Assembly (NCBI RefSeq): GCF_005886145.1
Contig: NZ_CP040504.1
Coordinates: 2,294,001 to 2,358,000, forward strand
DNA: 64,000 nt
Source: Neisseria sp. oral taxon 014 str. F0314
GTDB lineage: Bacteria > Pseudomonadota > Gammaproteobacteria > Burkholderiales > Neisseriaceae
Reading direction: 5' to 3'
A model generated the notes under the pieces. That model was not told where the DNA came from and did no database searches. It saw only the letters and a list, made by a program, of their open reading frames with translations. Positions 5,325 to 18,855 of the stretch are shown piece by piece (within the stretch, counting starts at the first letter, position 1; the number at the start of each line of letters is the position of its first letter). The position numbers were made by a program, and so were the translations under genes.

Positions 5325-6791
5325 TCAGAATCCGTATTCCACTTTAAACATGTATTCGTTGCGCTTGTAGCGGTTCAGCCAGGACGAGCTTTTGTTGTCG
5401 GTGTGTTTTACGGTGAGGACGGGTACGAAGCCGCGGAGGAAAGGGCGGTCGAATTTGATGTCCAACTGGTAGGTGCGTTCGAAATCACGGCGGCGGGTTT
5501 CCAGCCAGGCATGGTAGTCCTGATAGGCTGTTTTGCGCCAGATTGCCTGAAAGGTGGCGTCGATGCCGGATTCGAAACGTTTGTTGACACCCGCGCGCAG
5601 GCCGTGCCGGCGGTAGGAATCCACTTTTTCGCGGCTGTTTTTGCGCAGGTAGTCGTAGCCGCCGAATACCAGCCAGTCTTTCGGCAGGGCGTAGATGGCG
5701 GTGGTGAACAGAAGCGTCTGCGGGCCGTTGAAATGTTTTAATTCGCCGCGGTAGCGGTCGTATTTGTGGTCGAGCTGCACGCCCAGCGAGGCTTGGTCGG
5801 AAAAGGTGCGGCTGTATGCCATGCTGATGCCAGCGCTGCTGTCGCGCAGTTTGCCGCCCGACCATTCGTATTGCACCTGCGGGCCGATACTGAAGGAATG
5901 GTCTTTGCTCTGAAAACTGTAAGCGGGGCTGACGTTGATATTGTGTTCGCCGTATTCCTTGTTGCCGGGATAGAGCCGGCCCCATGCGTAGCCGCCCAGT
6001 TGCAGGCCGTGGTGGCCGTTGAGCGAAATGCGTCTGCTTAAGTTGGCTTCATATACCCACATCCGGTTTTTCAACGCATCGGGCGCGTAGGCGTCAAGCC
6101 GTTCGTTGCGGCAGGACAGCATTCCGGCGTCGTCCAGAATCGGCTGCCCGTTCGAATCGAAACCGCAGCTTGTCTGATTGCGGACAACCGTCGCGCCCGA
6201 CGACTGGTTTAAGTTGGTGTCGTAACCCGCGCCGAACGAAACCGAACCGCTCCACGCATCGCGTTTCTTCAAAGCGTCGGCAAACACTTTGATTTTCTCA
6301 TTGACGGCGGGCACTTCGGGAATATCGATGCCGTCGAACAATGCCGCCGATTCTTTGTTTTGTTTGTCTATAAACAGCAGCCGCGCCAAATCCAGGCGGC
6401 CGCGCAGAAATTCGGGATTTTTGCGGTAAAGCTCGCGGTATTTCGCCAGCGCGGCCTTCAAATCGTCGCGGAACACCGCCTGATTGGCCTCGGCAAACAG
6501 CACTATATCGGGGTCGTAATCATCCTGACGGCGGTAAATGTCCAACAGCCGCGCCGTTTCCTCTTCGTTTTGCGCGTTGACCGCCTTCATCAGCGACAAC
6601 GCTAAATCTTCGCCGTCCTGCACTTCTCCCGCGCCGAACTCAATCGCCGTATTGTCCGCTTCGTTCCTTTCCTGCTGTGCGCGGCGGAGTTCCGTTCCCT
6701 GTTTGAGCTGCATGAAGCGGTCTTCCCTGTCGTCGGCAAACGCGTGGGGCAGCAGGCTCAGAAAAACGGGCAGGATGAGCAGGCGTTTCAT
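5325..6791 (-). CDS. Slam-type outer-membrane translocator (DUF560)
   Basis: A 488-residue outer-membrane protein with a signal peptide (cleavage after PHAFA, about residue 19). An alpha-helical TPR-like part covers about residues 60-190 (ALAKYRELYRKNPEFLRGRLDLARLLF). A beta-barrel with repeated aromatic/Gly strands runs to a C-terminal phenylalanine. This is the architecture and length of Slam (surface lipoprotein assembly modulator, type XI secretion). Slam proteins carry TbpB-like lipoproteins, or soluble hemophilins, to the cell surface. It is the last gene after two hemophilin-like genes on the same strand, only about 90 bp from the nearer one, so those proteins are its likely cargo. Cargo specificity is inference. 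Confidence 0.9.
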   Translation of the reverse strand: MKRLLILPVFLSLLPHAFADDREDRFMQLKQGTELRRAQQERNEADNTAIEFGAGEVQDGEDLALSLMKAVNAQNEEETARLLDIYRRQDDYDPDIVLFAEANQAVFRDDLKAALAKYRELYRKNPEFLRGRLDLARLLFIDKQNKESAALFDGIDIPEVPAVNEKIKVFADALKKRDAWSGSVSFGAGYDTNLNQSSGATVVRNQTSCGFDSNGQPILDDAGMLSCRNERLDAYAPDALKNRMWVYEANLSRRISLNGHHGLQLGGYAWGRLYPGNKEYGEHNINVSPAYSFQSKDHSFSIGPQVQYEWSGGKLRDSSAGISMAYSRTFSDQASLGVQLDHKYDRYRGELKHFNGPQTLLFTTAIYALPKDWLVFGGYDYLRKNSREKVDSYRRHGLRAGVNKRFESGIDATFQAIWRKTAYQDYHAWLETRRRDFERTYQLDIKFDRPFLRGFVPVLTVKHTDNKSSSWLNRYKRNEYMFKVEYGF

Positions 6792-6880
6792 TTAGATTAC
6801 TTTCCTTTTGGTGTGGTGGGATTGGGTTTTCAGACGGCCTCTGAAGCGGGCCGGCAGACATTCATTCGGGTTTTCAATTA

Positions 6881-7768
6881 TTATTTTTTCGTACCGCCGA
6901 AAGCAGTATTGAGATTCGGATTTCGGGCGAACTCGGCGACACCGGCCAGCGCGGCGGCATCGTTGCCGTAGAAATTGCCGCGGGTCGTACCGCTTACATC
7001 GTTGGCCGTAGCCCTGCCGCCGAACGAAGCGTTCGCGGTGTTGATAACGGCATTGTCGACGGTAACGCTCAGGCCGGGGCGTTTAATCGTGCCGTTCAGC
7101 CTTTTTTTAGCGAAGTCCGCCTTTAAATCGCCGGTCAGCAGGGCGGTATTGGCGTCGACATAGTGATTGATGCCTTTGACCGAGTAAACGGCGGTGCCGC
7201 CGGTCGGCATTTTTGCGGTTTTGCCCGTACCGTTGTAGAACACGGAATAATTGGTTCCGGCCGTTCCCGCCGCCGCACCCGGCTGCACGTCCGCCCAATC
7301 GCCGAAATACACGTCCGCGTTGCCGACCCTGGCAAAAGACATACGGCCCAGGTTGGAATAATCGTTGGGTACCCCGCCGGGGACATATCTGTAAATCGGG
7401 CTGTACATACGGTAAAGGCGGGTAACGGTTACGCCGTTATCATCACGGTTGACGATACCGTCGAATAACCGGCGGATAAGCGGTAATCTGCCGATTTCGT
7501 CAAAGCGGGCGAACGAAGTTGAATTTTTATGGGTGTGGTACAGCCTTTTTCCTTTATAAGTCAGCAGATTGGAATAAGCAATATGAACGGAGGCCCTGTT
7601 TCCGTACCAGCCTGACGATTCGGTTCCGAGCCTGATATAGCGCGGTTGCCTGCCGTCCGTAACCGTTGCGCCCGCTTGGTCACCGGATACGAAAGATCGG
7701 GGCTGTGCCTGCGCGGCGGCAGCGGCAAACACGGCCGCCGCTATCAGCAGAAGTTTGGTATGTTTCAT
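6881..7768 (-). CDS. Hemophilin-like Slam-dependent secreted protein, copy B
   Basis: A 295-residue exported protein. The signal peptide ends AAAAQA before QPRSF and has no lipobox cysteine, so the mature protein should be soluble. The C-terminal third contains the Slam-substrate beta-barrel pattern: SVFYNGTGKT, LNGTIKRPGLSVTVDNA and RGNFYGNDAAALAGVAEF. This barrel is shared by TbpB-like lipoproteins and hemophilins. It is a full-length paralogue of the upstream copy and aligns without gaps for long stretches. At three positions where copy A has His (44, 137, 139), this protein has Tyr44, Tyr137 and Asn139. It instead has His62, His78 and His80 in the N-terminal part. It may therefore bind heme differently or bind another ligand. 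Confidence 0.82.
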   Translation of the reverse strand: MKHTKLLLIAAAVFAAAAAQAQPRSFVSGDQAGATVTDGRQPRYIRLGTESSGWYGNRASVHIAYSNLLTYKGKRLYHTHKNSTSFARFDEIGRLPLIRRLFDGIVNRDDNGVTVTRLYRMYSPIYRYVPGGVPNDYSNLGRMSFARVGNADVYFGDWADVQPGAAAGTAGTNYSVFYNGTGKTAKMPTGGTAVYSVKGINHYVDANTALLTGDLKADFAKKRLNGTIKRPGLSVTVDNAVINTANASFGGRATANDVSGTTRGNFYGNDAAALAGVAEFARNPNLNTAFGGTKK

Positions 7769-7890
7769 ATCAATCCCTTTAATGTAGCTGAATATTTTTT
7801 GAAAATTTGTTTAAAGGCCGTCTGAAACCGAATCGGGCGAAAGCAGGGCTTCCGCCCGACGGATAATCATCGTTTTCCAATCAGCCTGCT

Positions 7891-8775
7891 TTAGCGTCTG
7901 GTGCCACCGAAGGCAGTATTGAGTTTGGGATTGTTAAAATCGGCCACCCCGGCCAGTGCGGCGGCATTGTTGCCGTAGAAGTTACCGTGGGTTTTGCCGA
8001 TTACGCCGTTGGCTTTGGCGGCACCGTCAAACGAGGCCTGGGCGGTATTGATGGTGGCATTGTTGATCGCAACGCTCAAACCTGTTTTGGCAATCGTACC
8101 GTTCAATTTCTTGGCGCCGAAATCGGCGGTCAGCGTGCCGATCATGATGGGCGAATTCTGGTTGACGTAATTGTTGATACCTTTAACGGCATAGGTAGCC
8201 TTGCCGCTGGTCGGCATTCTGGTAGTTTTGCCCGTGCCGTTGTAGAACACGGAAGTATTGGTACCGACAGTACCCGCACCGGCTCCCGCTTTCACATCCG
8301 CCCATTCGCCGAAATACACATCCAGATTGCCGACTTTGCCGTAAGTCATACGGCCCAAATGGGAGTGGTCGGGCATTTTCCATATTTTGTTGTTGTAGAG
8401 CACGTTCCAAGCAGGACCACTCATACGGTACATGCGGGAAACGATAACGCCGTTTCTGTCCTTATTAACAATGCCGTTGGCCAAGCGGCGGATAAATGGC
8501 CTTGTCCCGATAGAATCTACTTTGGCGAACGGAGTGGGATTGTTATTGGCTACCTTTCTCCCTTGGCCTTTCAGGCTGGGGTCAACAACATTGATAGCAG
8601 CCTTGCCTCTGTAATTGCCTTCTCCTTCTATTCCCAATTCGATATGACGAGGAAGTCCGTTGTTTGTAACTGTTGCACCTATCTGCGTACCGGAAGTAAA
8701 AGTGCGGATTTGAGCTTGGGTGGAAGACGCGGCAAACACGGTGGCCAAGGCTATCAGAAGTTTAGCGTGTGTCAT
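7891..8775 (-). CDS. Hemophilin-like Slam-dependent secreted protein, copy A
   Basis: A 294-residue exported protein with an SPase I signal peptide (ASSTQA before QIRTF) and no lipidation cysteine. The N-terminal ligand-handling domain includes LPRHIELG (His44) and MPDHSHLG (His137, His139), plausible axial heme ligands. The C-terminal domain has the Slam-substrate barrel pattern ending GNFYGNNAAALAGVADF. Hemophilins (HphA) are secreted heme scavengers that deliver to a dedicated TonB receptor and are exported by Slam. The neighbours here, a TonB receptor upstream and slam downstream, match that organisation. An AT-rich promoter region with a Fur-box-like site lies upstream. Heme binding is inferred, not shown. 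Confidence 0.84.
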   Translation of the reverse strand: MTHAKLLIALATVFAASSTQAQIRTFTSGTQIGATVTNNGLPRHIELGIEGEGNYRGKAAINVVDPSLKGQGRKVANNNPTPFAKVDSIGTRPFIRRLANGIVNKDRNGVIVSRMYRMSGPAWNVLYNNKIWKMPDHSHLGRMTYGKVGNLDVYFGEWADVKAGAGAGTVGTNTSVFYNGTGKTTRMPTSGKATYAVKGINNYVNQNSPIMIGTLTADFGAKKLNGTIAKTGLSVAINNATINTAQASFDGAAKANGVIGKTHGNFYGNNAAALAGVADFNNPKLNTAFGGTRR

Positions 8776-8920
8776 GATTAAATCTCCTAAATATGGTGTT
8801 TACAAATGCCTTCCGAAGATTTACAAAAGGCCGTTTCAATCGGACCGGATTCGGATAAGCGGTCTTTAATGCATTCAGAAGGTAATATGAACTATACGCC
8901 TGATTACAACTAATGCAAAT

Positions 8921-8939
8921 AAAAATAATTTTAATTATC
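8921..8939 (-). promoter_or_regulatory. Candidate Fur box upstream of hemophilin A
   Basis: aaaaataattttaattatc matches 13 of 19 positions of the classical Fur consensus by my own alignment. It lies about 145 bp upstream of the hemophilin A start. The surroundings are AT-rich, so a chance match is possible. Confidence 0.4.
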
Positions 8940-9058
8940 TTCTTTGTTAAATATATTTTATCTATTAACTTTTGTGTTAATCAAATATAACTAAAAAAAT
9001 AATTGTTATAGCGGTTACATAAATATGTAATGCCGACCGGCACGGATAAATCTGCTTT

Positions 9059-9079
9059 GTTTCCCGCCTGTGCGGGAAT
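9059..9079. repeat. dRS3-type repeat
   Basis: ttcccgcctgtgcgggaat, the neisserial dRS3 inverted repeat with conserved ends and a variable middle, as a single copy. Confidence 0.6.
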
Positions 9080-9162
9080 GGCTGGGTACGGGGAAGGGCG
9101 GTTTTGTCAAAGGGAGTAATGGATGGGTTTGAAAAGGCGGAGAAGGCCGTCTGAAAAGGAAG

Positions 9163-9219
9163 AGGCCGTCTGAAAAATCTTCCGGCTGCTTTGGCGCGGC
9201 GGTATTTTTCAGACGGCCT
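9163..9219 (-). terminator. DUS-pair hairpin after the TonB receptor
   Basis: aggccgtctgaaaaat at 9163-9178 is exactly complementary to 9204-9219, with a 25-bp loop, just beyond the receptor stop at 9240. Confidence 0.65.
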
Positions 9220-9239
9220 GACGATAGGCAAATAAATGG

Positions 9240-12200
9240 TCAGAATTTGCCGGTAATCCCTATCCTGACCGTTCTGCCCGGTGCGGGCATGAAGGAGCGG
9301 CTGAACGGGTCCATATAGTAGCGGTTGGTCAGGTTGGTGCCCACCAGCTCGGCGGTAATGTTTTTGTTGATGCGGTAGCGCAGATAGGCATCGACGACGG
9401 CCGTGGCGGTCCAACGCATATCTTCTATGCCGTCAGTATAATCTTTGACTTCGTCCACAGCGGTGGCGTAGTGGTCGTTAACCGCCCGCTCGAAGCCGCG
9501 CCATGAGTCTACGCGGGTTTTATAGACGTCGCTGTGCCAGTGGAAGCGGGTGCCGACATCCAGTTTGTTTTTCAGGAAACGTGCGCCCAGCTCGGCATCG
9601 ACCGACCAGCGCGGCTGCATCATGGACGACAGGTAACCATCGATTTTCACTCCGCCGGGGAAACAGGTCGGCGCGCGCAGCAGCGGTTTGCTGCCGCTGC
9701 TTTGAACATGCAATCTCAGCACGGTTGACTGTAATCGGTCAGTGAATGCGGCACCTTCGTCGCAGACGTCGTTGCGGATGGTGCGGATGAGGCCGAGGCT
9801 GCCGTACACCTTGCCGGTATCGAAGCGGGCGGACAATTCCGCACCAGAACGTATCTGCTTGTCGAATTGTTCGAATTCAAGCTGGTCGTTGCGGTCGATG
9901 ATGTTTTTGGTGGTGTTGCGGAAATAGTTGATGCGGAAATCGGCCTTGCGCATTTTCGGGAACATTCCGGTCAGGTCGTGGATATAGCCGACCTCGAAAT
10001 TTTTGCCGCGTTCGGGTTTCCATTGGTAGCCATAGCGGTTTACCGAAGTGGTGTTGAGCTGCGGGCTGATGGGAACACCTACGGTACCCTCGAAAATGCT
10101 GGGAAAACGCAGGGTTTGGGTATAGCGCAGGTAGGCGCGGGCATAGTCGGTCAGATTGAAGGTTACCGAAGCGGCGGGTGCCCAGCCGCTGCCTTTCTGC
10201 TTCAGCGCCTGCTGCTTCTGCGCCGGTGTCAGCGCGCTTTTATAAGAGTAGTCACTTGCAGTTTCAGCTTTAAGGTTTTGGAATTTGTTTACAAAACGCG
10301 GGCTGCTGGGATCAGCCGGATTATAGGCGGGGTTTTCGACACGGGTCAGCACTTTGGGATTGTTCAATATCGGATGGTCGGCCATATTCAGTTTGCCGTA
10401 TTGGTCTTTGGTCCAATCGAAACGCGCTCGATTAATATACACTGGTAGTATACCGTCAGATCCTACGGGATTGATTTTAGCAGACGCATCCAACATGTCT
10501 TGTGTCGGTTCGCATGCAGGTAATATGATGCAGGCATTGAATTTTTGGTAGGCTTCGTAATCCTTTTTCGTTGCCACAACTTCGGCGGTATATCGAAGCC
10601 CCCTGTGGGCTTCCAATTCACCGCCATTGTCTAAGAATTTTTTGACACTGTCGTCTTGCAGGGAGAAGTTGGTATAGCGCGCGCCTGCGGTCAGCGTCAG
10701 CCACGGACGCGGCTCGAAGCGGAAATTGAAGCCGAGGTTGTATTCGCGCCGCCTGCCGTTGCGCGGGTAGGTAATAGTATCAAGAAATGAACTGGGATAG
10801 ATCAAGTTTTGATCAAATTCCTTTTTGTAGCGGTTGCCATATAAATCGGCAAATTCGTTATGCGTTGCCAGTTTTTCGTTCTGAAAGTCGCCCAATACGG
10901 TCAGCTCGAGATTGTCGCGCAGCTTCATGCGGTTGGAGAAATTGAAGCCGTTGCGGTTGTTGGTGGCGTAGAGCGCCTGCGCCTGGCGGGTATTGAAGCG
11001 GCCGTCGGTATTCGGCAGGCCTTCGTCCAAACCGGGCCTTTTGCGAAGGCCTTGAATCCAGTCGTCGGCAGCCGCATTCCATCCCACGTCGGTCCAAGCA
11101 ATATCGCCGGGGACGCCGCCGGAGGAATTGGTTTTGGAGCGGGTGCGGGTGGTCCATAGCGAGGCGTTCAAATCAATCCAGCGGCTGCCTTCGGGCTTCC
11201 ACAAATAGTCGATATTGTAGGCGCGCTGCTTGACCCACGCCTGCGGCCATTCGGCGATTTTGTTTTGGGAATTGACGTTTTCACCTTGGAAACCGCCGCC
11301 GCTGAGGATACGCGAGGGCATAACCTCGCCGAAGGTGGAGTGCGTATGGCGCAGGCCGAGTTTGATGCTCTGGTTGTTCGGCAGGCGGAAGGTGGTTTTT
11401 CCCAGCCAGGATTCGGTTTCCAGCGAAGTATTGGCTACTTCGCCCCCCGGCGTATAGAAGAGGCCGATAATGGGGGCTTCGGGGCTGAGTTCCTTTATTC
11501 CCCGTTCGTTCAGTCTGCGGAGGTTCTCGGCATTGTCGGCAGAATAATAACCGTAACGGTGCGCGCCTTTTTTGCCTGAAAAGTAATTGCCCTTGTTGCG
11601 GTAGGCATAGGTGAGTATGGCATCGAAATTTTCCTGTTTGGTCGCGGCTGCGATGCGGTAGGCCTTGTCTTCCGAAAATTTATGCTTGCCGCCGAAGCGC
11701 GGGGGTAATCTGTCGGAATCGTCGGCATAAAACCGCCAGTATCCGCCCATTACATTTAAAGGATTCTCCAAGGTACGGTAATCCATGTTTTCGGCATAGG
11801 TGGCTTTGCGCGGCTTGATGGAATTGTTGCTGGTTTCCGCCTTGATTTCCACGCCGTATTTCTGACCTTCGGGCACGATGTCGTCGGCTTCGAGAGTTTT
11901 CAGCGCCACCGAACCGCCGATACCGCTTTTGACCTCGCGGTTGAACGACGGGCCTTTTTCCACATACACGCTGCTGATGATATTGGGATCGACATAGTTG
12001 CGGTTGTTTGCGCCGAACATGCCGCGCCAGACGGTAATCGCCTGCTCAGTGCCGTCGATGGTAACGGGGATGCGCCCCTGCCCCTGTACGCCGCGGATGT
12101 TGGGGTCGAGCGCGCCGCTGTTGCGCGCTTCGCCGCTGTAGACTCCGGGCAGCCCGCTGAAGAGGTCGGATACGGTGTTGCCTTTGAAGGTTTCGACATC

Positions 12201-12419
12201 TTCCTTGCCTTTGTAGAGGTTGACGATTTCGCGGGTATAGACGCGGTTTTTACCGCGTTCGTCTTTGTGTTTGCCTTTTACGGTAATCGGATTGAGCGTA
12301 ACGGTTTGGGTGGCGGCTCCTTCGGCGGAGGCGTCGGCATTGTCGGCGGCAAGGAGGGAAGGGCAGAGGCCGAGCACGCTCAGGCAGGCCGCGATGGTTT
12401 TCAGTCGGTTGTTTCTCAT
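9240..12419 (-). CDS. Large TonB-dependent receptor, probable hemophilin/heme receptor
   Basis: A 1059-residue outer-membrane receptor. The signal peptide ends near SLLA (about residue 24). A TonB-box-like segment (TVTLNPITVKG) follows. The plug domain carries DLFSGLPGVYSG and NIRGVQGQGRIPVTIDGTEQ, and the long barrel ends NITAELVGTNLTNRYY and a terminal Phe. Such receptors import iron or heme compounds using TonB energy. Length and position beside hemophilin-slam genes resemble hemophilin receptors, so heme or heme-hemophilin is the inferred ligand. An extracellular loop with CDEGAAF...TCFPGG could form a disulphide. The gene has its own AT-rich promoter region upstream and a DUS hairpin behind it. 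Confidence 0.88.
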   Translation of the reverse strand: MRNNRLKTIAACLSVLGLCPSLLAADNADASAEGAATQTVTLNPITVKGKHKDERGKNRVYTREIVNLYKGKEDVETFKGNTVSDLFSGLPGVYSGEARNSGALDPNIRGVQGQGRIPVTIDGTEQAITVWRGMFGANNRNYVDPNIISSVYVEKGPSFNREVKSGIGGSVALKTLEADDIVPEGQKYGVEIKAETSNNSIKPRKATYAENMDYRTLENPLNVMGGYWRFYADDSDRLPPRFGGKHKFSEDKAYRIAAATKQENFDAILTYAYRNKGNYFSGKKGAHRYGYYSADNAENLRRLNERGIKELSPEAPIIGLFYTPGGEVANTSLETESWLGKTTFRLPNNQSIKLGLRHTHSTFGEVMPSRILSGGGFQGENVNSQNKIAEWPQAWVKQRAYNIDYLWKPEGSRWIDLNASLWTTRTRSKTNSSGGVPGDIAWTDVGWNAAADDWIQGLRKRPGLDEGLPNTDGRFNTRQAQALYATNNRNGFNFSNRMKLRDNLELTVLGDFQNEKLATHNEFADLYGNRYKKEFDQNLIYPSSFLDTITYPRNGRRREYNLGFNFRFEPRPWLTLTAGARYTNFSLQDDSVKKFLDNGGELEAHRGLRYTAEVVATKKDYEAYQKFNACIILPACEPTQDMLDASAKINPVGSDGILPVYINRARFDWTKDQYGKLNMADHPILNNPKVLTRVENPAYNPADPSSPRFVNKFQNLKAETASDYSYKSALTPAQKQQALKQKGSGWAPAASVTFNLTDYARAYLRYTQTLRFPSIFEGTVGVPISPQLNTTSVNRYGYQWKPERGKNFEVGYIHDLTGMFPKMRKADFRINYFRNTTKNIIDRNDQLEFEQFDKQIRSGAELSARFDTGKVYGSLGLIRTIRNDVCDEGAAFTDRLQSTVLRLHVQSSGSKPLLRAPTCFPGGVKIDGYLSSMMQPRWSVDAELGARFLKNKLDVGTRFHWHSDVYKTRVDSWRGFERAVNDHYATAVDEVKDYTDGIEDMRWTATAVVDAYLRYRINKNITAELVGTNLTNRYYMDPFSRSFMPAPGRTVRIGITGKF

Positions 12420-12713
12420 TGAGTGACTCCAAAATATTGTTTTGTTGTTTCACCCGTTTGTCGTGATTGGCGGGTACAGAGAAAATTAAAAAGAGAAGCA
12501 GTTCGAATGTGATTCGAATTTAAATTATTTTGAATAATATTGATTATTGTTTGATTATTTGACGGAAGATGATGGATTTTGTTTCACTGCTTGGAAACTT
12601 TTACAAAAGATTTTCGCAGAAAATTCTAATTGTTTGCTATTCGGATAAAAAATATGGCTTAAATTAAAAGATTTTCGGTATTAAAAACCGATAAACGGTA
12701 TAGAGGACAAGCA
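12420..12713 (-). promoter_or_regulatory. Promoter region of the TonB receptor, candidate Fur site
   Basis: About 290 AT-rich bases upstream of the receptor start, with no gene seen. At 12533-12548 aataatattgattatt is a palindrome-like run. On the minus strand the 19-bp window around it matches about 11 of 19 Fur consensus positions. Weak, but consistent with iron control of a heme receptor. Confidence 0.35.
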
Positions 12714-12743
12714 GGCCGTCTGAAAACTTTTCAGACGGCCTGC
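12714..12743 (-). terminator. DUS-pair terminator after the NAD(P)-binding gene
   Basis: aggccgtctgaaaacttttcagacggcct region, a perfect stem of two facing DUS, next to the minus-strand stop at 12762. Confidence 0.75.
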
Positions 12744-12761
12744 TCCGATAGAAATAACGTG

Positions 12762-13382
12762 TCAGCCGCCTGCGCCGACGGTGTAAACCTTACCGATGCT
12801 GTCGGGGTTGCGGAGGATGGCGGAAACGGCGGCGGCGAGTCCGTTCCGAGTCATGTATTTTTTGGGGATGCCGTCGGGTTGCAGGGTCAGGTTGTAGCTG
12901 TTGCCGTCGCCGTCGGCGAGGCCGCAGGGGCGGAGGATGGTCCAGTTCAGGCTGCTTTGTTTGAGATAGATTTCGGCTTCGGTTTTGGCGCGGACGGCTT
13001 CGCCGAGGGCTTGTTTGAAGGGTTCGCTCATCATGTCCCATTGTTCGCCGCAGCCCATGCTGGTAATCAGGATGAAACGGGCTTGCGGGTTGGCGGTTTG
13101 GGCGGCGGCGATGATGTTGATGTTGCCCAGTGCGTCACTGCGTATGCCTTGTTCGTTTTTGCCGCCGACGAAGCTGATGACGCTGTCGGGGCGGTATTGT
13201 GCAAACACTTTGTCGAGCGCGTCGGCATCAAGCGCGTCGGCGGTGGCCGTCTGAATGCGGTGTTCGCTAAAGAACGAATCTTCAGACGGCTTTCTTAATA
13301 CCGCGACGGTGTCGGCTGGGTTGGTGAGCGTGCGGATAAATGCGCGGCCGGACGGGCCGTTGGCACCGAAGATGAGTTGCAT
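12762..13382 (-). CDS. NAD(P)-binding, NmrA/SDR-like oxidoreductase
   Basis: A 206-residue cytosolic protein of the atypical short-chain dehydrogenase group. It begins MQLIFGANGPSGRAFIRTL, a Rossmann GxxGxxG variant. It contains DALDADALDKVFAQYRPDSVISFVGG and ITSMGCG, then a TILRPCGL segment typical of NAD(P)H-binding (NmrA/YwnB-like) proteins. The substrate is unknown. The ATG at 13382 has AAAGGAGACCCC upstream; longer starts add a disordered segment. It sits between the heme receptor and hutWX on the same strand, where hutZ is found in other organisms. A reductase role in heme breakdown is possible but only inferred. A DUS (tcagacggc) lies inside the coding region. Confidence 0.75.
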   Translation of the reverse strand: MQLIFGANGPSGRAFIRTLTNPADTVAVLRKPSEDSFFSEHRIQTATADALDADALDKVFAQYRPDSVISFVGGKNEQGIRSDALGNINIIAAAQTANPQARFILITSMGCGEQWDMMSEPFKQALGEAVRAKTEAEIYLKQSSLNWTILRPCGLADGDGNSYNLTLQPDGIPKKYMTRNGLAAAVSAILRNPDSIGKVYTVGAGG

Positions 13383-13599
13383 GGGGTCTCCTTTGTTGGA
13401 TGGTTTGGGGTAGGCTGGTTGATTTTTCAGACGACCTTGTTGTGTTTGATGTTGTGTGGTCGTGGGCATAGCCCACGCTACTTCTTTTTGGTTTTCTTTT
13501 GCGGTAGAGCTGAGGTCGTCTGAAACGGGTAAAGCGGGTTTTATAACAACAGCCGTAGCGTGGGCTTTGCCCGCGGAATTGACTTGCCGGTTTGGTGCT
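13383..13599. other. Intergenic: short palindromes and DUS
   Basis: No gene. It holds facing mucosa-type DUS forms (cagacgacctt at about 13430, gaggtcgtctgaaac at about 13512), the palindrome gtgggcatagcccac at 13465-13479, and a related imperfect copy (gtgggctttgcccgc) at about 13559. Confidence 0.55.
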
Positions 13600-13742
13600 T
13601 TACCCTCTCCCTAGCCCTCTCCCACGGGGAGAGGGGATTGAGGATACTGAGATTCAACCATTTTTGGATTCTCTGCCACTTGGAGTCTCCCTGCCAATTT
13701 ATCCCCTCTCCCCGTGGGAGAGGGTTAGGGAGAGGGCGGTAA
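13600..13742. repeat. MITE-like element: inverted 37-bp arms
   Basis: The left arm at 13600-13637 (ttaccctctccctagccctct and on to ggggagagggg) is nearly identical to the reverse complement of 13701-13742. About 60 bp lie between. The arms themselves contain a nested palindrome (cccctctccccgtgggagag). It has the shape of a small REP- or MITE-like insertion between hutWX and the NAD(P)-binding gene. No coding capacity is seen. Confidence 0.65.
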
Positions 13743-13887
13743 GCGCAAGCTTACTTTGGGGTAAACACCAATCTTGCAGGCAGCCTGTCGAATTTCATCG
13801 GATATTTACGATGCCGAGAGATGGTTTCGTTTGTGCAGGAATGCGGCAATTTCTGTCGGTTTCAGACAGAGGTCGTCTGAAACCTGT

Positions 13888-15708
13888 TTAAGCCGCCTCA
13901 AACAGTTTTCTCATGGCTTCGATTTGGTGTTGTTTGAGTTCGCCGGCTTCGTCGCGGCCGACGAAGATTTTGAACATGGCGCCGCCGTTGCGGTTGATGA
14001 AGTTGAGCGAGCAGGTGTCTTTGCCCATAAACGGACGCTCTAAAAGGTAGATGGCGGCGCAGTTTTCGTAATAGATATGACCGTGTACGCCGCCGTCGGT
14101 TTCGGGGTGGTCGAAATTGTAGAAGCCGCGGCCGACTTTGCCGCCGGGCAGTTTGCCGGTAACTTCGACGATGGCGTCGGGGGTGTGGGCGATGAAGGTG
14201 ACGGCTTCGTCCCAAGCGGCGACGGCTTGGAGGATTTCGACGATGCGGCTGCCTTCGATTTGGCGGATGCAGTTTTCGGGCAGGCAGCGGATGACGTCTT
14301 CAAAGCTGCATTGGTTTTGCGCGGCGAGCATTTCGAGCACTTGGCCGGGATTTTTTTCCAATGATTGGCGCAACATGATTTGTTGTTCGGATGAAAGTTT
14401 TTGCATGGTTTGATCCTTTTCTTGGGTCGGGAGGGTGAGCATGAGTTTGCGGATGAGGGTGGGCGACCAGTAGCGGCCGCTGGTGTTCAGGCGGATGAGG
14501 CCGTCTGAACCTTGTTCTTCAAAGAGTTGCATGTCCTGCCATTGGGCAATCAGTTTCTGCGCGGCGGCGTTGCCGTCAAACAGCGAGGGATTCAGACGAC
14601 CTGTTTCCATATCGTGCTGCACTTGTCCGAGCAGGGCTTTGTTCGGGCTGTGGCCGCTCATGAAGGCGATGTTTTTTTCGCCTTTCGGGGTGGCGAGGTA
14701 GCTGTCCAAATCGCCCTGCACCTGATAGCTGAAGCCGCCGAAGTTGCCGCCTGCGCCGGAGCCGAACGCCCAGCAGGGGATATTGGATTTGACCAGGGTG
14801 TTGTAGCGGTTGCGTTCGCCGCGGCCGGGATAGGCGAAATGGCTGTTGCTGACTTGGTTCCAGCCTTTTTGCGCCAGCGTTTCGACGGCGTAGGCGTATT
14901 GGTCTGCCTGAACGTCGAAACCGGGCGGGGCGGGAAATGCGCCTTTCTCCACCATGCGGTTGATAGGCAGCATGGGATAGAGGTTGAAGGCGTAGGTGTC
15001 GAGTCCGGACAAAGGCAGGGCGGTGGCGCGTTCGAGGTCGTTTTGCCAAACGGTGTCGGTTTGGTTGGGCAGGCCGAACATCAAATCGACAACGATGACG
15101 GCATTGATTTCACACAGTTTTTCCAGATAGGCAAAGGCTTCGTCGCCGCCGTGTTTGCGGCCGAGGCGGCGGCGGATGGCGGTGTCGAAGGTTTGCACGC
15201 CGATGGAAATGCGGTTGGCACCCGCTTCGACGCAGGCTTGGGCTTTTTCGATGTCGAAATGGCTCATGCGGCCTTCGATGGTGAACTCGCAGTCGTCGGC
15301 AATCGGCAGGTATTGGTAACAGGCGCGGATGAGTCTGGCGAGGTCCGGGGTTTGCAGCGCGGTGGGCGTGCCGCCGCCGAAATAGACGGCGCGGATTTTG
15401 CCGTTGCCTTGGCGGATTTCGGCTTCCGCCGCCATTTCTTCGATGATTTTGTCGGTGTAAACGCTGCTGTAACTCTCTTTCCATGCGTTGCGGTAGAAGC
15501 CGCAGAACACGCAGTGGTTGGCGCAGAAGGGAATGTGCAGATAGGCGAGCGCGTCGGAATCGGCGGCATGGGGGAGCTTCTGCCGCCAAATATTTTGCCA
15601 TTGCGGACGGGGAATCGGTATGCCACCCCATATCGGCATCAACGCCTGCCGTTCGGGAAAGGCTTTGGGCGCGGATTGGCGCGGTGTCCAAACAATCTGC
15701 TGGGTCAT
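13888..15708 (-). CDS. hutW: HutW-HutX fusion: anaerobic heme-degrading radical SAM enzyme joined to heme carrier
   Basis: A 606-residue protein. Residues 1-434 are a HemN-like radical SAM protein of the HutW/ChuW type. The cluster motif FCANHCVFCG gives Cys62, Cys66 and Cys69, followed by AVYFGGGTPTALQ and RISIGVQTFD. HutW/ChuW opens the heme ring without oxygen. Residues 435-606 match HutX/ChuX, the cytosolic heme carrier (GKVGRGFYNFDHPETDGGVHGHIYYENCAAIYLLERPFMGKDTCSLNF in the family pattern). In other bacteria these are separate neighbouring genes. The junction codon 435 is an ATG with AAAAGGA upstream, i.e. an apparent old hutX start. Possible Fur box upstream. Confidence 0.88.
   Translation of the reverse strand: MTQQIVWTPRQSAPKAFPERQALMPIWGGIPIPRPQWQNIWRQKLPHAADSDALAYLHIPFCANHCVFCGFYRNAWKESYSSVYTDKIIEEMAAEAEIRQGNGKIRAVYFGGGTPTALQTPDLARLIRACYQYLPIADDCEFTIEGRMSHFDIEKAQACVEAGANRISIGVQTFDTAIRRRLGRKHGGDEAFAYLEKLCEINAVIVVDLMFGLPNQTDTVWQNDLERATALPLSGLDTYAFNLYPMLPINRMVEKGAFPAPPGFDVQADQYAYAVETLAQKGWNQVSNSHFAYPGRGERNRYNTLVKSNIPCWAFGSGAGGNFGGFSYQVQGDLDSYLATPKGEKNIAFMSGHSPNKALLGQVQHDMETGRLNPSLFDGNAAAQKLIAQWQDMQLFEEQGSDGLIRLNTSGRYWSPTLIRKLMLTLPTQEKDQTMQKLSSEQQIMLRQSLEKNPGQVLEMLAAQNQCSFEDVIRCLPENCIRQIEGSRIVEILQAVAAWDEAVTFIAHTPDAIVEVTGKLPGGKVGRGFYNFDHPETDGGVHGHIYYENCAAIYLLERPFMGKDTCSLNFINRNGGAMFKIFVGRDEAGELKQHQIEAMRKLFEAA
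14404..14422 (-). promoter_or_regulatory. Internal ribosome-binding site and start codon for a separate HutX
   Basis: On the minus strand AAAAGGATCAAACC precedes an in-frame ATG whose product would be a 172-residue HutX, the normal HutX length. It suggests that HutX may be made both alone and as part of the fusion. Confidence 0.55.
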
Positions 15709-15716
15709 AATAAATT

Positions 15717-15735
15717 AAAAACGATTATTATTCAC
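15717..15735 (-). promoter_or_regulatory. Candidate Fur box upstream of hutWX
   Basis: Read on the minus strand, gtgaataataatcgttttt matches 13 of 19 Fur consensus positions and lies 9 bp upstream of the hutWX start codon, a position that would block transcription or overlap the leader. Confidence 0.4.
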
Positions 15736-15833
15736 TCTAATAGAGTAAATAACTAATTTTGAAAGGTCAAGGAAAGAAGCGCGGAAGGTTGCCTAGGCCG
15801 ACGGGTAACTATGAAACCGATTTTCAGACGGCC

Positions 15834-16559
15834 TCAGCTTCTGAAATAAATCCCTTCTTCGTCTTGGCAGCGGCGTATCGGCCAGCCGTAAACCGCTTCG
15901 AGCAAATCCGGCCGCATGACGGCTGCCGCATCGCCGGCAGCGATGATTTTCCCTTTATCCATCAGGACAATATGTTCGGCATAACGGGCGGCAAGGTTGA
16001 GGTCGTGCAGCACCATCACGGATGAGGCGCGGCTTTTGTGGCGGACGAGATACTGCATCAGGCGGTGTTGGTGGCGGATGTCGAGGTGGTTGCACGGTTC
16101 GTCCAAAAGCAGGACGCGGGCGTTTTGCAGCAGGGCGCGGATGATGTTGGCGCGTTGCTGTTCGCCGCCGGAAAGCCTGCCGATGCGTTTTTCCGCCAGC
16201 GCCGCCAAATCGAAATAGTTTAAAAGTTCGTCCGCCCATTCGTGATTCAGACGGCCTTTCTGCACGAACGCCGCCAGAGCGATGTATTCGCGCACGGTCA
16301 TGGGCATGTTGTAACGGCCGTGCTGCCCGACCCACGCCGCTTTGCCTGCGCGGATTTGCGGCGCGGCGGCTTCGCCCAAAAGTGTAATCTCTCCTTGTCC
16401 CGCCTGTCCGATTAAGGCCCTCAGCAAAGTGGATTTGCCTGCGCCGTTGGGGCCGATAACGGCGGTGCTGCCCGCAGGAATATCGAGCGCGTCGATTTCA
16501 AGCAGGGTTTTGCCTTTGATGCGGACGGAGAGATTGCGGATTCGGAATACGGGTTGCAT
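15834..16559 (-). CDS. hmuV: Heme ABC transporter ATP-binding protein
   Basis: A 241-residue ATPase with Walker A GPNGAGKST, signature LSGGEQQRANIIRALL, Walker B VLLLDEPCNHLD and switch His in VMVLHDLNLAARY. It is of the FepC/HmuV type, energising import of heme or iron chelates. The start ATG at 16557-16559 begins MQPVFRIRNLSV; a TTG 21 bases upstream is an alternative, and neither has a strong ribosome site. It lies 48 bp after the permease gene and upstream of hutWX, which supports heme as substrate. It ends within a DUS (TCA in cctcagctt). Confidence 0.88.
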   Translation of the reverse strand: MQPVFRIRNLSVRIKGKTLLEIDALDIPAGSTAVIGPNGAGKSTLLRALIGQAGQGEITLLGEAAAPQIRAGKAAWVGQHGRYNMPMTVREYIALAAFVQKGRLNHEWADELLNYFDLAALAEKRIGRLSGGEQQRANIIRALLQNARVLLLDEPCNHLDIRHQHRLMQYLVRHKSRASSVMVLHDLNLAARYAEHIVLMDKGKIIAAGDAAAVMRPDLLEAVYGWPIRRCQDEEGIYFRS

Positions 16560-16607
16560 GGCAATGAAAGATACGGGCAATGGGTTTTCAGACGGCCTGA
16601 ACAGGCA

Positions 16608-17549
16608 TTAACTGCCTCTCAAAGGCTTAATAAACAAATACATAAAAAACGGTCCGCCGATTAGGGCGATGACGATGCCGACAGGCAGGTCGACGGGATA
16701 GGTAAACCAGCGCGCCGCACCGTCCACCATCATCAGAAACACCGCGCCCAGCCAGGCGGACAGGGCGGTGAGTTTGCGGCGGCTGCCGCCGACTGCCTGC
16801 GAGAGCACGTTGGGCACCATCATGCCGAGAAAACCGATGATGCCGGCTAGCGACACCGCCGCACCTGTCATCAAGGCCGCGCCGATAACGGTCTGCACGC
16901 GCAGTGCACCGACCGACACGCCCATGCTGGTGGCGGTATCCTCACCCGTCATCAGCACATCGAGGCGGCGGCCTGCGGAAAGCAGGAGCAGGAAGCCCGG
17001 CAGCATCACCGCCAGCGCCGCCGACGGCGAGGTAAAGCCCGCTTCGGCCAAACTGCCCGAAAGCCATGTGGTCGCACTGCGCAACACCAGGTCGTCTGAA
17101 AGAAACAGGATCATGCTGACCACCGCGCCGGAAAACGCGCTCAACACAAAACCCAACACCAGCAGCCCCAAAGTGCCGCCGCCGAGCAGCTTGTGCGCCG
17201 CCAAAATCAGCAGGCACACGCCCAGCGCGCCGATAAAAGCCGCCGCCGATACGCCGACGGCACCGCCGCCCGCCGCCAGCAGGGCAATCACGCCCAATGC
17301 CGCACCGCCCGAAGTGCCGATCAGGCTGGGGTCGGCGAGCGGGTTCTCAAACAGGGCCTGCAACGCCGCCCCCGAAGCGGACAAACCCGCGCCGACCAAA
17401 AGCGCGGTGTAGATGCGCGGCAGGCGGATTTGGCGGACGGTTTCGTCCATGGCAAATGGTGATTCCCACGCACCGAACCCGATGCCGCAGCAGAAATAAA
17501 CGGCGGCGGCGGTGAGGGCGAGACAGATGAGGAGAGTGGGCAGTTTCAT
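16608..17549 (-). CDS. hmuU: FecCD-family permease, heme/iron ABC transporter
   Basis: A 313-residue integral membrane protein with about nine or ten helices and the FecCD signature (RLPRIYTALLVGAGLSASGAALQALFENPLADPSLIGTSGGAALG; LGMMVPNVLSQ; the C-terminal GGPFFMYLF). It would form the inner-membrane channel with HmuV and take its ligand from HmuT. The ATG at 17549 starts directly before the first helix; a TTG at 17618 would add 23 polar residues encoded partly by a DUS. A mucosa-type DUS is embedded in the coding sequence near 17090. A dRS3 cassette separates it from hmuT. Confidence 0.87.
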   Translation of the reverse strand: MKLPTLLICLALTAAAVYFCCGIGFGAWESPFAMDETVRQIRLPRIYTALLVGAGLSASGAALQALFENPLADPSLIGTSGGAALGVIALLAAGGGAVGVSAAAFIGALGVCLLILAAHKLLGGGTLGLLVLGFVLSAFSGAVVSMILFLSDDLVLRSATTWLSGSLAEAGFTSPSAALAVMLPGFLLLLSAGRRLDVLMTGEDTATSMGVSVGALRVQTVIGAALMTGAAVSLAGIIGFLGMMVPNVLSQAVGGSRRKLTALSAWLGAVFLMMVDGAARWFTYPVDLPVGIVIALIGGPFFMYLFIKPLRGS

Positions 17550-17867
17550 GGGTTTACAATGTCGGGGGCGTTCTGCTTTCAGTCGGCCTTTGAGGTCGTC
17601 TGAAAGCGTCAGTTTCAATAAAGTTAAAATTTAAAACGGCAAACCGTGAAGCAAACAACTGAAGTTTACCGGCCATCATCTCCGAAGGGTCGTCTGAAAC
17701 CTATAAACCGTCATTCCCGCGCAGGCGGGAATCCATTTTTGAAATTCAGAAACTGTTTTTCAAATAAAGGTCATCAAGTTTTACGATAGAATCCCGCCTG
17801 CGCGGGAATGACGGCGGCGGGGAATAAGGTGTTCGGGTTGAAACATAGGTCGTCTGAAAACCGCGGC
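17550..17867. repeat. Intergenic spacer with dRS3/NIME-like cassette between hmuT and hmuU
   Basis: About 320 bp without a gene. A perfect dRS3 (attcccgcgcaggcgggaat, 17713-17732) and an inverted, slightly degenerate partner (17790-17809) bracket about 57 bp. This is the pattern of neisserial intergenic mosaic elements. Three mucosa-type DUS flank it. Confidence 0.7.
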
Positions 17868-18656
17868 CTATTTCGCCAGCCCGTTCAAACGCTGCACCAC
17901 CTGCGGTGTATCCAATCCGTAGCGGAACATGTCGTTGGCTTTCCACAGGTAAATCTTGCCGTTTTTCGCGGCGGGCGAGCCTGCGATTTCGGGGCGGGCG
18001 GCGAATGCTTTGGTACTGCCTATCATGGCGGTGTTGTGGTCGGCGATGACGATGATGTCGGGTTTGGCCGCTATCCATGCTTCGCGCGTCATCGGCTTGA
18101 GGCCGTCGATGGCGGCTGCGGCGTTGATGCCGCCGGCGCGGCGGATGATTTCGTCGGCGGCGGTGTTTTTACCCGAAACGATGCGGCCGTCGTAGCTGAA
18201 CAGGTATCGTTTGCCGTTGGCGGGCTGCTGTTTCATGTCCGCCTGCCATTTCGAGGCGATTTTGTCCGCCTGCGCGCTTTTGCCGATGAGCTGCCCGATG
18301 CGGCGGATGCTTTGCGGGTAGGCGGCGATGCTGTCGTCGGGCGCGACGTTGACGGCGTTGACGCCGGCCGTTTTCAGGCGGGTGAAAATGTCGGCGGGCT
18401 GTGCCATCCACGAACCGATGGCGATGTCGGGCTTGGCGGCGATAATAGGCTCGACGGTCAGGCGGCGGTGGATGCCGATGCTGGGTTTGCTTTGCAGGAC
18501 GGGATTCTGCACGGTCTGGTCGCGGCCGACGATTTCGTCCAGCGAACCGAGTGCGACGACGATGTCCGCCGTATCGGGCGTCAGCACGACGATGCGCTGC
18601 GCGTGGGCGGCGGCTGTAAGGGCGATGACGGAGAGAACGAGGTGTTTGGGTTTCAT
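17868..18656 (-). CDS. hmuT: Periplasmic heme-binding protein of the ABC transporter
   Basis: A 262-residue protein with a signal peptide (TAAAHA before QRIVVLTPDTADIVVALG), no lipobox, and the BtuF/HmuT-type fold. It has a TPDTADIVVALGSLDEIVGRD start, the AAKPDIAIGSW and AAKPDIIVIADH lobes, and RAGGINAAAA in between. It should capture heme in the periplasm for HmuUV. The ATG at 18656 has AAAGGAAATTCC upstream, a clear ribosome-binding site. Upstream on the same strand lies the remnant of a TonB receptor, which probably once formed the first gene of this operon. Iron chelates other than heme are not excluded. Confidence 0.85.
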   Translation of the reverse strand: MKPKHLVLSVIALTAAAHAQRIVVLTPDTADIVVALGSLDEIVGRDQTVQNPVLQSKPSIGIHRRLTVEPIIAAKPDIAIGSWMAQPADIFTRLKTAGVNAVNVAPDDSIAAYPQSIRRIGQLIGKSAQADKIASKWQADMKQQPANGKRYLFSYDGRIVSGKNTAADEIIRRAGGINAAAAIDGLKPMTREAWIAAKPDIIVIADHNTAMIGSTKAFAARPEIAGSPAAKNGKIYLWKANDMFRYGLDTPQVVQRLNGLAK

Positions 18657-18675
18657 GGAATTTCCTTTGAGGGTT

Positions 18676-18855
18676 TCAGACGGCCTTGAAGGATTCGCGT
18701 TTAACAATCCGATTAATGACGGATTTTTTACGGAAAAATCTGATTGCCGCGCGTTTGCGACCGACGGTAACGGCTTTCAGTTCGGCTTGTCCGACGCATA
18801 CGGATTATTGGGAACACAGCGCAACCAACGTGCAAGCAACAGCTTTTGGTTTCAT
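18676..18855 (-). pseudogene. Remnant of a second TonB-dependent receptor
   Basis: On the minus strand an ATG at 18855 opens MKPKAVACTLVALCSQ, then TAA, and the same frame continues as SVCVGQAELKAVTVGRKRAA and on to a DUS-provided stop at 18676. The first part looks like a signal peptide, and AELKAVTVGRKR resembles the mature N-terminus and TonB box of heme receptors. About 60 codons remain of what is normally 650 or more. The likely history is a nonsense mutation plus deletion of the barrel. It lies 20 bp upstream of hmuT, where hmuR-type receptors usually sit. Confidence 0.65.

Follow-up and report, generated by a model that had tools for sequence, protein, structure and literature searches.

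Hemophilin-fold proteins with His and Tyr at the axial-ligand position in a probable heme-scavenging island of Neisseria sp. oral taxon 014

Introduction

In the heme cluster 2 of Acinetobacter baumannii (HphA-HsmA-HphR), a soluble hemophore that is exported by a Slam protein is encoded together with this Slam and a TonB receptor (PMC8560813). The heme iron is ligated in HphA by H43 and H106, and an H43A/H106A protein does not bind heme (PMC8560813). For heme breakdown, hutWXZ of Vibrio cholerae and the chu genes of Escherichia coli O157:H7 provide an anaerobilin synthase, a heme carrier and an anaerobilin reductase (roles of ChuW, ChuS, ChuX and ChuY: PMC10404700), and Neisseria subflava and other commensals have a TonB-dependent haem system and a hutWXZ-like heme operon (PMC7643975). 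Slam-hemophilin-receptor sets, the HutW, HutX and ChuY proteins and, for N. subflava and others, a hutWXZ-like heme system are thus already known. Here, a stretch of 64,000 nucleotides from Neisseria sp. oral taxon 014 str. F0314 (the window; contig NZ_CP040504.1, positions 2294001-2358000 of a 2.5 Mb single-contig genome labelled G000) was analyzed, of which positions 5325-18855 carry both kinds of genes. We propose that this region is probably a two-module heme-scavenging island, with an uptake module (the hemophilin-fold proteins Hpl1 and Hpl2, a Slam and a TonB receptor) and a module for heme use (HmuTUV, HutWX and a ChuY-like protein), in which Hpl1 would employ a His and Hpl2 a Tyr as ligand.

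Results

Genes were assigned by profile searches (Pfam and NCBIfam), a PDB sequence search and Foldseek on predicted models (Table 1). All named genes of the island are open frames on the minus strand, in the order (upstream to downstream) HmuT-like protein, FecCD permease, ABC ATPase, HutW-HutX, ChuY-like protein, TonB receptor, Hpl1, Hpl2 and Slam. The gene content, order and single strand given by the original prediction, which was made from the letters alone, are hence borne out by open frames and profiles, and its coordinates match. Its list had overlooked the ChuY-like reductase.

The best PDB sequence match of both secreted proteins is the hemophore 6om5 (Hpl1 3.9e-47, Hpl2 9.2e-40). 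The predicted model of Hpl1 (pLDDT 82.5) matches the same structure in Foldseek with 7.2e-24, and Hpl1 passes the cut-offs of HphA_C (73.5 vs 31 bits) and HphA_N (25.4 vs 22 bits, residues 131-160 only). It has the architecture of a hemophilin, an N-terminal clamp and a C-terminal 8-stranded barrel. Hpl2 has the hemophilin fold as well, yet not the axial His equivalent to HphA H106; as it carries Tyr137 instead, it is classed here as a hemophilin-fold paralogue and not as a proven heme-binding hemophilin. Structure prediction and comparison with HphA, the check that the original prediction had named, thus yielded the hemophilin fold for both proteins, whereas the label of two hemophilins has to be qualified for Hpl2 and its missing His. 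The claim that hemophilin-fold cargo, a Slam and a large TonB receptor lie in one block is borne out by sequence, profiles and predicted structure. Both proteins contain zero Cys residues, hence no lipobox Cys, score above the cut-off of NF041636, end in a TbpB-like barrel, lie next to the Slam gene and have, judged by eye, a signal peptide, which marks them as candidate Slam-dependent soluble cargo. Both would be exported through the adjacent Slam and may bind heme, although possibly unequally, given the missing axial His of Hpl2.

Alignment to 7re4 and 6om5 equates H137 of Hpl1 (codon at 8365-8367) with H106 of HphA. In 7re4 it matches the His at chain index 96, which is H106 as the numbering runs to 264 for a chain of 254 residues and the offset is therefore 10; the Ser before this His is S105 of PMC8560813. 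Y137 of Hpl2 occupies the position of Hpl1 H137, three residues ahead of the invariant L140-G141-R142. A first alignment of 71 sequences contained 61 His, 7 Tyr and 1 Ala at this site, with 2 sequences having no residue there. A wider first alignment of 136 rows, including duplicates, exhibited 97 His, 16 Tyr, 17 gaps, 2 Arg and 1 each of Phe, Gly, Asp and Ala, the rows with Arg, Phe, Gly, Asp or Ala being distant families or a broken fragment in which the site is not surely aligned. From these 136 rows, 85 (77 His, 8 Tyr) were drawn for a tree from which the ligand-site column was excluded. The 10 dropped proteins are a Tyr fragment (P0004), five with His (P0046, P0047, P0069, P0084, P0086), three broken or short ones (P0045, P0057, P0085) and P0068, which has Ala in the 71-sequence alignment and a gap in the other; the 41 of 48 locus frames that were dropped are duplicates, further His rows, fragments or distant families.

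In this tree the change to Tyr occurred twice. One change maps to the base of a 7-row Neisseria-type clade (2 from genus genomes, 5 database proteins) with a support of 99/98 and long internal branches, the other one in the Aggregatibacter kilianii protein P0077, whose closest relatives have His. A single origin was rejected when all Tyr rows were forced into one clade (p-AU 5.7e-5); a tree of the N-terminal part only (59 rows, P0077 absent) contains one change. The loop His H80 of Hpl2 is present in P0001, P0002 and P0003 and absent in P0019. Tyr is known as heme-iron ligand from HasA and IsdX1 (PMC8560813), and ligand swaps with altered redox preference are described for the HmuY hemophore family, though there with His and Met (PMC12106395). 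By analogy, Tyr137 is most likely the heme-iron ligand of Hpl2. Neither a Tyr hemophilin nor a His/Tyr pair was found in the literature searched; as two central hemophilin papers lay outside this search, absence from print is not claimed.

Within the genus search, a tandem hemophilin pair with a Tyr partner was found only in G000 and G019. Between these two genomes, the ratio of nonsynonymous to synonymous substitution (dN/dS) is 0.19 for Hpl2, 0.28 for Hpl1, 0.21 for the receptor and 0.24 for the Slam, and Hpl2 is accordingly maintained by purifying selection. The longest contigs of P0003 (Tyr-type) and P0042 (His-type) both have 7788 bases, and these two genes may form a third tandem His/Tyr pair on a shared contig. 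Further hemophilin-like proteins are encoded elsewhere in G000, which has 5 Slams including the island copy. One of them adjoins a Slam at 1406080-1408096 (contig C1, locus L003); its axial site is not surely alignable and has an Arg near it. For its family, Tyr was apparent in several rows of the first alignment, but realignment left the site unsure and the G000 copy has Arg, so that these rows were left uncounted. A second set at 2415569-2421920 (C1, L054) comprises a Slam, a hemophilin-like protein (309 aa) and a TonB receptor (1105 aa).

The receptor of the island was searched for in 46 genomes of the genus at E 1e-50 or better, and 20 of them matched. Sorted after the matches were known, 13 have the window type (48-93% identity over aligned pieces), two (G013, G031) only a type of ~1,130-1,200 aa with 41-42% identity and five (G006, G015, G029, G034, G038) only distant matches with 36-46% over pieces. 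HutWX is present in 16 of the 46 genomes and in all 13 with the window-type receptor, even where both are unlinked (Fisher p 5.5e-9, shared ancestry ignored). If G013 and G031 are added to the receptor genomes, the table reads 15, 0, 1, 30; if all 20 matches are counted, HutWX is found in 15 of them (p 4.1e-7). Receptor and breakdown genes are close to each other in six of the 13 genomes, in two arrangements: on the same strand with chuY between them, as in the window, or diverging from a breakdown operon whose first gene encodes a 732-aa receptor, either as direct neighbours (G035, G037) or separated by two frames (G014, G024, G036). As candidate for an alternative partner of the island, HemO was rejected; it occurs in 15 of 16 genomes with HutWX and in 22 of 30 without (p=0.13) and hence does not track it.

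The window-type receptor is uninterrupted in 9 of its 13 genomes, and a hemophilin gene is adjacent in 7 of these 9 (6 open, 1 interrupted in G024) and absent beside the receptors of G035 and G037. Beside the four interrupted receptors (G004, G007, G014, G036) no adjacent hemophilin was found within ~4.5 kb on each side (0/4 vs 7/9; Fisher p=0.021); in G004 both of two receptor copies are interrupted. The Slams of G019, G023 and G026 are 96-97% identical to the one in the window, while receptor and hemophilin of G023 and G026 share merely 54-56%, which looks like an exchange of receptor-hemophilin cassettes beside a constant Slam. The order receptor-hemophilin-Slam of the island also occurs in A. 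kilianii (L058). There, a second large receptor-like stretch of two frames (395 + 680 aa) lies downstream of the Slam at 12467-16623, followed by a frame that is transposase-like by eye.

In the breakdown module, both halves of the fusion pass equivalog profiles (HutW: cut-off 400 bits; HutX: cut-off 110 bits). Of 16 Neisseria carriers, 15 encode HutW and HutX in a single open frame, and in G008 the frame is interrupted. That this fusion is specific for Neisseria was rejected: in a sample of 398 genomes from the phylum, the fusion was matched over its whole length in two of 13 other genomes with a match and in HutW only in the remaining 11. In a sample of 250 from the order, all 7 non-Neisseria matches are to HutW only (a separate HutX was not sought there). 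The two additional fusions (G578:C3, G627:C1) have 63-68% identity and belong to another family of the same class, which hints at transfer between lineages. In P. bettyae, HutW and HutX are adjacent separate frames. As to the ChuY-like gene, its relation to 5guy in sequence goes along with linkage to HutW, as it lies at most ~1.1 kb downstream of HutWX in all 14 relatives whose HutWX is uninterrupted; with the interrupted HutWX of G008 it was not found. The linear product of ChuW is the substrate that ChuY reduces in E. coli (PMC10404700), and the gene in the island would therefore make the breakdown set complete as a putative anaerobilin reductase. HutZ is not evident in G000 (TIGR04110: 22.4 bits vs a cut-off of 225), and across the 46 genus genomes this profile gave weak matches in 18 and 0 above the cut-off.

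Table 1. Features of the heme island, in positions of the window.
Feature	Positions	Strand	Evidence and remarks
Slam/type 11 secretion outer-membrane translocator, 488 aa	5325..6791	-	N-terminal TPR + SlipAM barrel; Pfam SlipAM 3.1e-38, TPR_Slam 3.6e-18
Hpl2, hemophilin-fold secreted protein, 295 aa, Tyr137 at axial-ligand position	6881..7768	-	HphA_C 2.2e-14; slam_lipo NF041636 1.7e-33
Hpl1, hemophilin-fold secreted protein, 294 aa, His137 at axial-ligand position	7891..8775	-	HphA_C 2.3e-20; NF041636 1.5e-37
TonB-dependent receptor, 1059 aa, proposed hemophilin/heme receptor	9240..12419	-	TonB_dep_Rec 3.1e-22; Plug 1.1e-11
ChuY-like NAD(P)H reductase, proposed anaerobilin reductase	12762..13382	-	PDB 5ffq (ShuY-like) 8e-22, 5guy (ChuY) 1.1e-21; NAD_binding_10 1.8e-30
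HutW-HutX fusion, 606 aa, radical SAM anaerobilin synthase + heme carrier	13888..15708	-	TIGR04107 533.5 bits; TIGR04108 200.9 bits; CX3CX2C cluster motif
HmuV-like ABC ATPase (first-codon open reading frame)	15834..16580	-	ABC_tran 2.8e-25; NCBIfam 'heme ABC transporter ATP-binding protein' 4.3e-56, below cut-off
HmuU-like FecCD permease	16608..17549 (first-codon open reading frame to 17618)	-	FecCD 3.2e-72; start trimmed by relatives
HmuT-like periplasmic binding protein	17868..18656 (first-codon open reading frame to 18707)	-	Peripla_BP_2 5.7e-28; start trimmed by relatives
Possible 16-codon remnant of the start of a 732-734-aa TonB receptor	18808..18855	-	68.75% identity over 16 residues to the receptor start of G023; weak match, E=1.5

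Open reading frames that begin at the first possible codon are overlong at several starts, and the boundaries of hmuT and hmuU (both approximate) and of chuY in Table 1 were set by alignment to relatives. For the HmuV-like ATPase, the frames of relatives align from residue 8, so that translation may in fact begin a few codons further downstream. The end of the island at 18855 is not hmuT; it is a start codon followed by 16 codons like the beginning of the 732-734-aa TonB receptor that heads the operon in relatives, the match alone being weak. The remainder of this receptor gene was not found in the window. The gaps between HutWX and ChuY (13470-13887) and between HmuT and HmuU (17619-17867) are rich in inverted repeats and resemble neisserial dispersed repeats; in G035 they have only ~90 and 140 bases.

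Among 8 gaps tried with a 19-base Fur consensus, the best matches upstream of Hpl1 (8921-8939, 14/19, reached in 3 of 200 shuffles) and of HutWX (15717-15735, 13/19, 7 of 200) are only suggestive of Fur boxes, and the other six gaps behaved like shuffles (38 to 196 of 200). Sigma-70 promoters (9 found, 9.0 expected) and terminators (31 found, 24.5 expected) gave no clear signal. Of repeats that could support phase variation, neither homopolymers (A/T >=8, G/C >=7) nor 4-6-base units repeated four times occur in 5325-18855, other kinds of repeats not having been sought. DNA uptake words are represented by 64 AG-DUS, 22 AG-mucDUS and 4 DUS.

Discussion

In the mechanism that we propose, Hpl1 and Hpl2 would leave the cytosol by Sec export, cross the outer membrane as non-lipidated proteins via the adjacent Slam, capture heme outside and pass it to the adjacent TonB receptor. 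HmuTUV would move periplasmic heme to the cytosol, where the HutX domain would pass it on, within one polypeptide, to the HutW domain. The latter would open the heme ring by oxygen-independent radical SAM chemistry and thereby free the iron, and the linear product would be reduced by the ChuY-like enzyme. Hpl1 would use the usual His ligand, whereas ligation via Tyr137 would let Hpl2 favour ferric heme and release it differently. The uptake part of this scheme is supported, and the link to breakdown is plausible. The single path from surface to cytosol of the original prediction is hence backed for uptake and in part for breakdown, by the full HutW-HutX and ChuY set and by the co-distribution in Neisseria, but outside of this genus the modules are often apart.

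Several observations weigh against this mechanism. The His missing from Hpl2 is one of the two residues, H43 being the other, whose joint removal leaves HphA unable to bind heme. The best subfamily profile of the receptor, the heme/hemoglobin receptor TIGR01785, reaches 217.9 bits vs a cut-off of 316.85, and PDB matches to PhuR (8the, 2.2e-14) and HasR (3csl, 9.1e-11) cover the N-terminal part only; it is called heme-type by context and partial similarity. The HmuV-like ATPase stays below the heme-profile cut-off (189.9 vs 261 bits), the best NCBIfam profile of the HmuU-like permease is BtuC (195.8 bits vs 334) and every NCBIfam match of the HmuT-like protein is below cut-off, so that it is the operon context that points to heme as substrate of this transporter. 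Gaps of ~340-500 bases between island genes suggest separate transcripts. HutWX also occurs where the window-type receptor is missing, interrupted in G008 and together with only the more distant receptor type, beside which no hemophilin was found, in G013 and G031. A phylogeny-aware comparison that used a purH tree with 45 of the 46 genomes, purH alone being a weak species tree in a recombining genus, gave 5 independent pairs on starred branches (mean 3.9 concordant, 0 opposite, 1.1 no difference; sign test p=0.125), and with so few pairs a p of 0.05 is out of reach. In G019, the sole other genus genome with both hemophilins, receptor (994062) and HutWX (2414202) lie ~1.4 Mb apart. Outside Neisseria, only 4 of 12 hemophilin genomes have a HutW match at 1e-40 and 8 have none, and in the two non-Neisseria genomes with a fused HutWX the window-type receptor gave no match at 1e-30, a query that does match in its own genus.

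The separation in G019 and outside Neisseria also fits the idea that the modules are neighbours and not partners, with HmuTUV-HutWX-ChuY serving other receptors and the heme from hemophilin going to HemO. G000 indeed has a further heme route, as HemO adjoins a 791-aa TonB receptor elsewhere in the genome (2159527-2162505), and the breakdown operons of G014, G024, G035, G036 and G037 have their own intact 732-aa receptor. Yet, HutWX is found in 13 of 13 genomes with the window-type receptor while HemO does not track it, receptor and breakdown genes came close to each other in two different arrangements, and of the operon's own receptor only a possible remnant is left in the window; a search of G000 with the G035 receptor gave one match, of 30% identity, which is the receptor beside HemO. 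We therefore regard mere neighbourhood as a serious but doubtful alternative.

Other explanations concern Hpl2. It might have given up iron coordination and, in the manner of the structurally related HpuA, bind hemoglobin (or some other protein of the host) instead of heme, thereby assisting Hpl1 or the receptor as a soluble co-factor. This appears unlikely, since the replacement in the alignable family is Tyr, itself a known heme ligand, and arose twice, whereas an unselected loss of iron coordination would give mixed residues; the Ala row of P0068 was dropped and the other non-Tyr rows are distant or broken and not surely aligned. That Hpl2 is a functionless duplicate en route to loss would fit a tandem paralogue whose side-by-side pairing is confined to two genomes of the genus search, as well as the interrupted genes of related receptors or hemophilins in several species. 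Its open frame, its dN/dS relative to G019 and the well-supported Tyr clade with long internal branches make such decay very improbable. Conversely, the two-module island can be extended to a relay of two hemophores, in which Hpl1 would grip heme in either redox state and Hpl2 would bind ferric heme in a His/Tyr manner (with H80), convergent with HasA, releasing it on reduction at the receptor and feeding an oxygen-independent, carrier-fused breakdown enzyme, and a Tyr-ligated hemophilin would have evolved at least twice, in Neisseria and Aggregatibacter. In this detailed form the proposal is tentative and could well be wrong.

If the two-module island is real, a single gene block would hold a His/Tyr ligand swap made by nature, so that what the ligand does when heme is stolen and released could be tested within one system. 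It would furthermore connect a hemophore system with the anaerobic breakdown of heme in Neisseria; should the host be a commensal of the kind described in PMC7643975, this bacterium might be a heme competitor on human mucosa. The HutW-HutX fusion bears on the question which enzyme HutX serves. According to the title of a V. cholerae paper that is cited by PMC7643975 and PMC10404700, HutX serves HutZ; being fused to HutW argues for delivery of heme to HutW. ChuW of E. coli is supplied with heme by ChuS, and HmuF of F. nucleatum joins the roles of carrier and reductase (PMC10404700). The carrier-synthase fusion would be a third solution to heme delivery beside these two. The fusion is unnamed in the titles and abstract openings of the literature searched, the full-text check being limited to the main text of PMC7643975.

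Compared with the A. baumannii cluster, the island shares the set of hemophore, Slam and TonB receptor genes and the hemophore fold, with H106 aligning to H137 and Y137. There, one bis-His hemophore occurs with HemO in the locus (PMC8560813), whereas the island has two hemophores, one of them with Tyr, beside an anaerobic degradation set. The closest solved structures to Hpl1 and Hpl2 are the Haemophilus haemolyticus hemophilin 6om5 (PMC10964412) and H. parainfluenzae HphA (8glo), both with His at the aligned site, unlike Hpl2. In N. gonorrhoeae, NGO0554/NGO0555 are a Slam and hemophilin-like cargo under iron/Fur regulation (PMC8406197, PMC12918729), a likeness by description, and the G000 hemophilin-like protein at 1406080 may belong to this group. 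Unlike hutWXZ of V. cholerae and chu of E. coli, the island joins HutW and HutX in one polypeptide and has no HutZ above cut-off. The main text of PMC7643975 on N. subflava and other commensals contains zero mentions of Slam, hemophilin, hemophore, ChuY or a fusion. Beyond these systems, this study contributes the ChuY-like gene, a hemophore pair of His and Tyr type, with two independent origins of Tyr, and the co-distribution of receptor type and fused HutWX in Neisseria.

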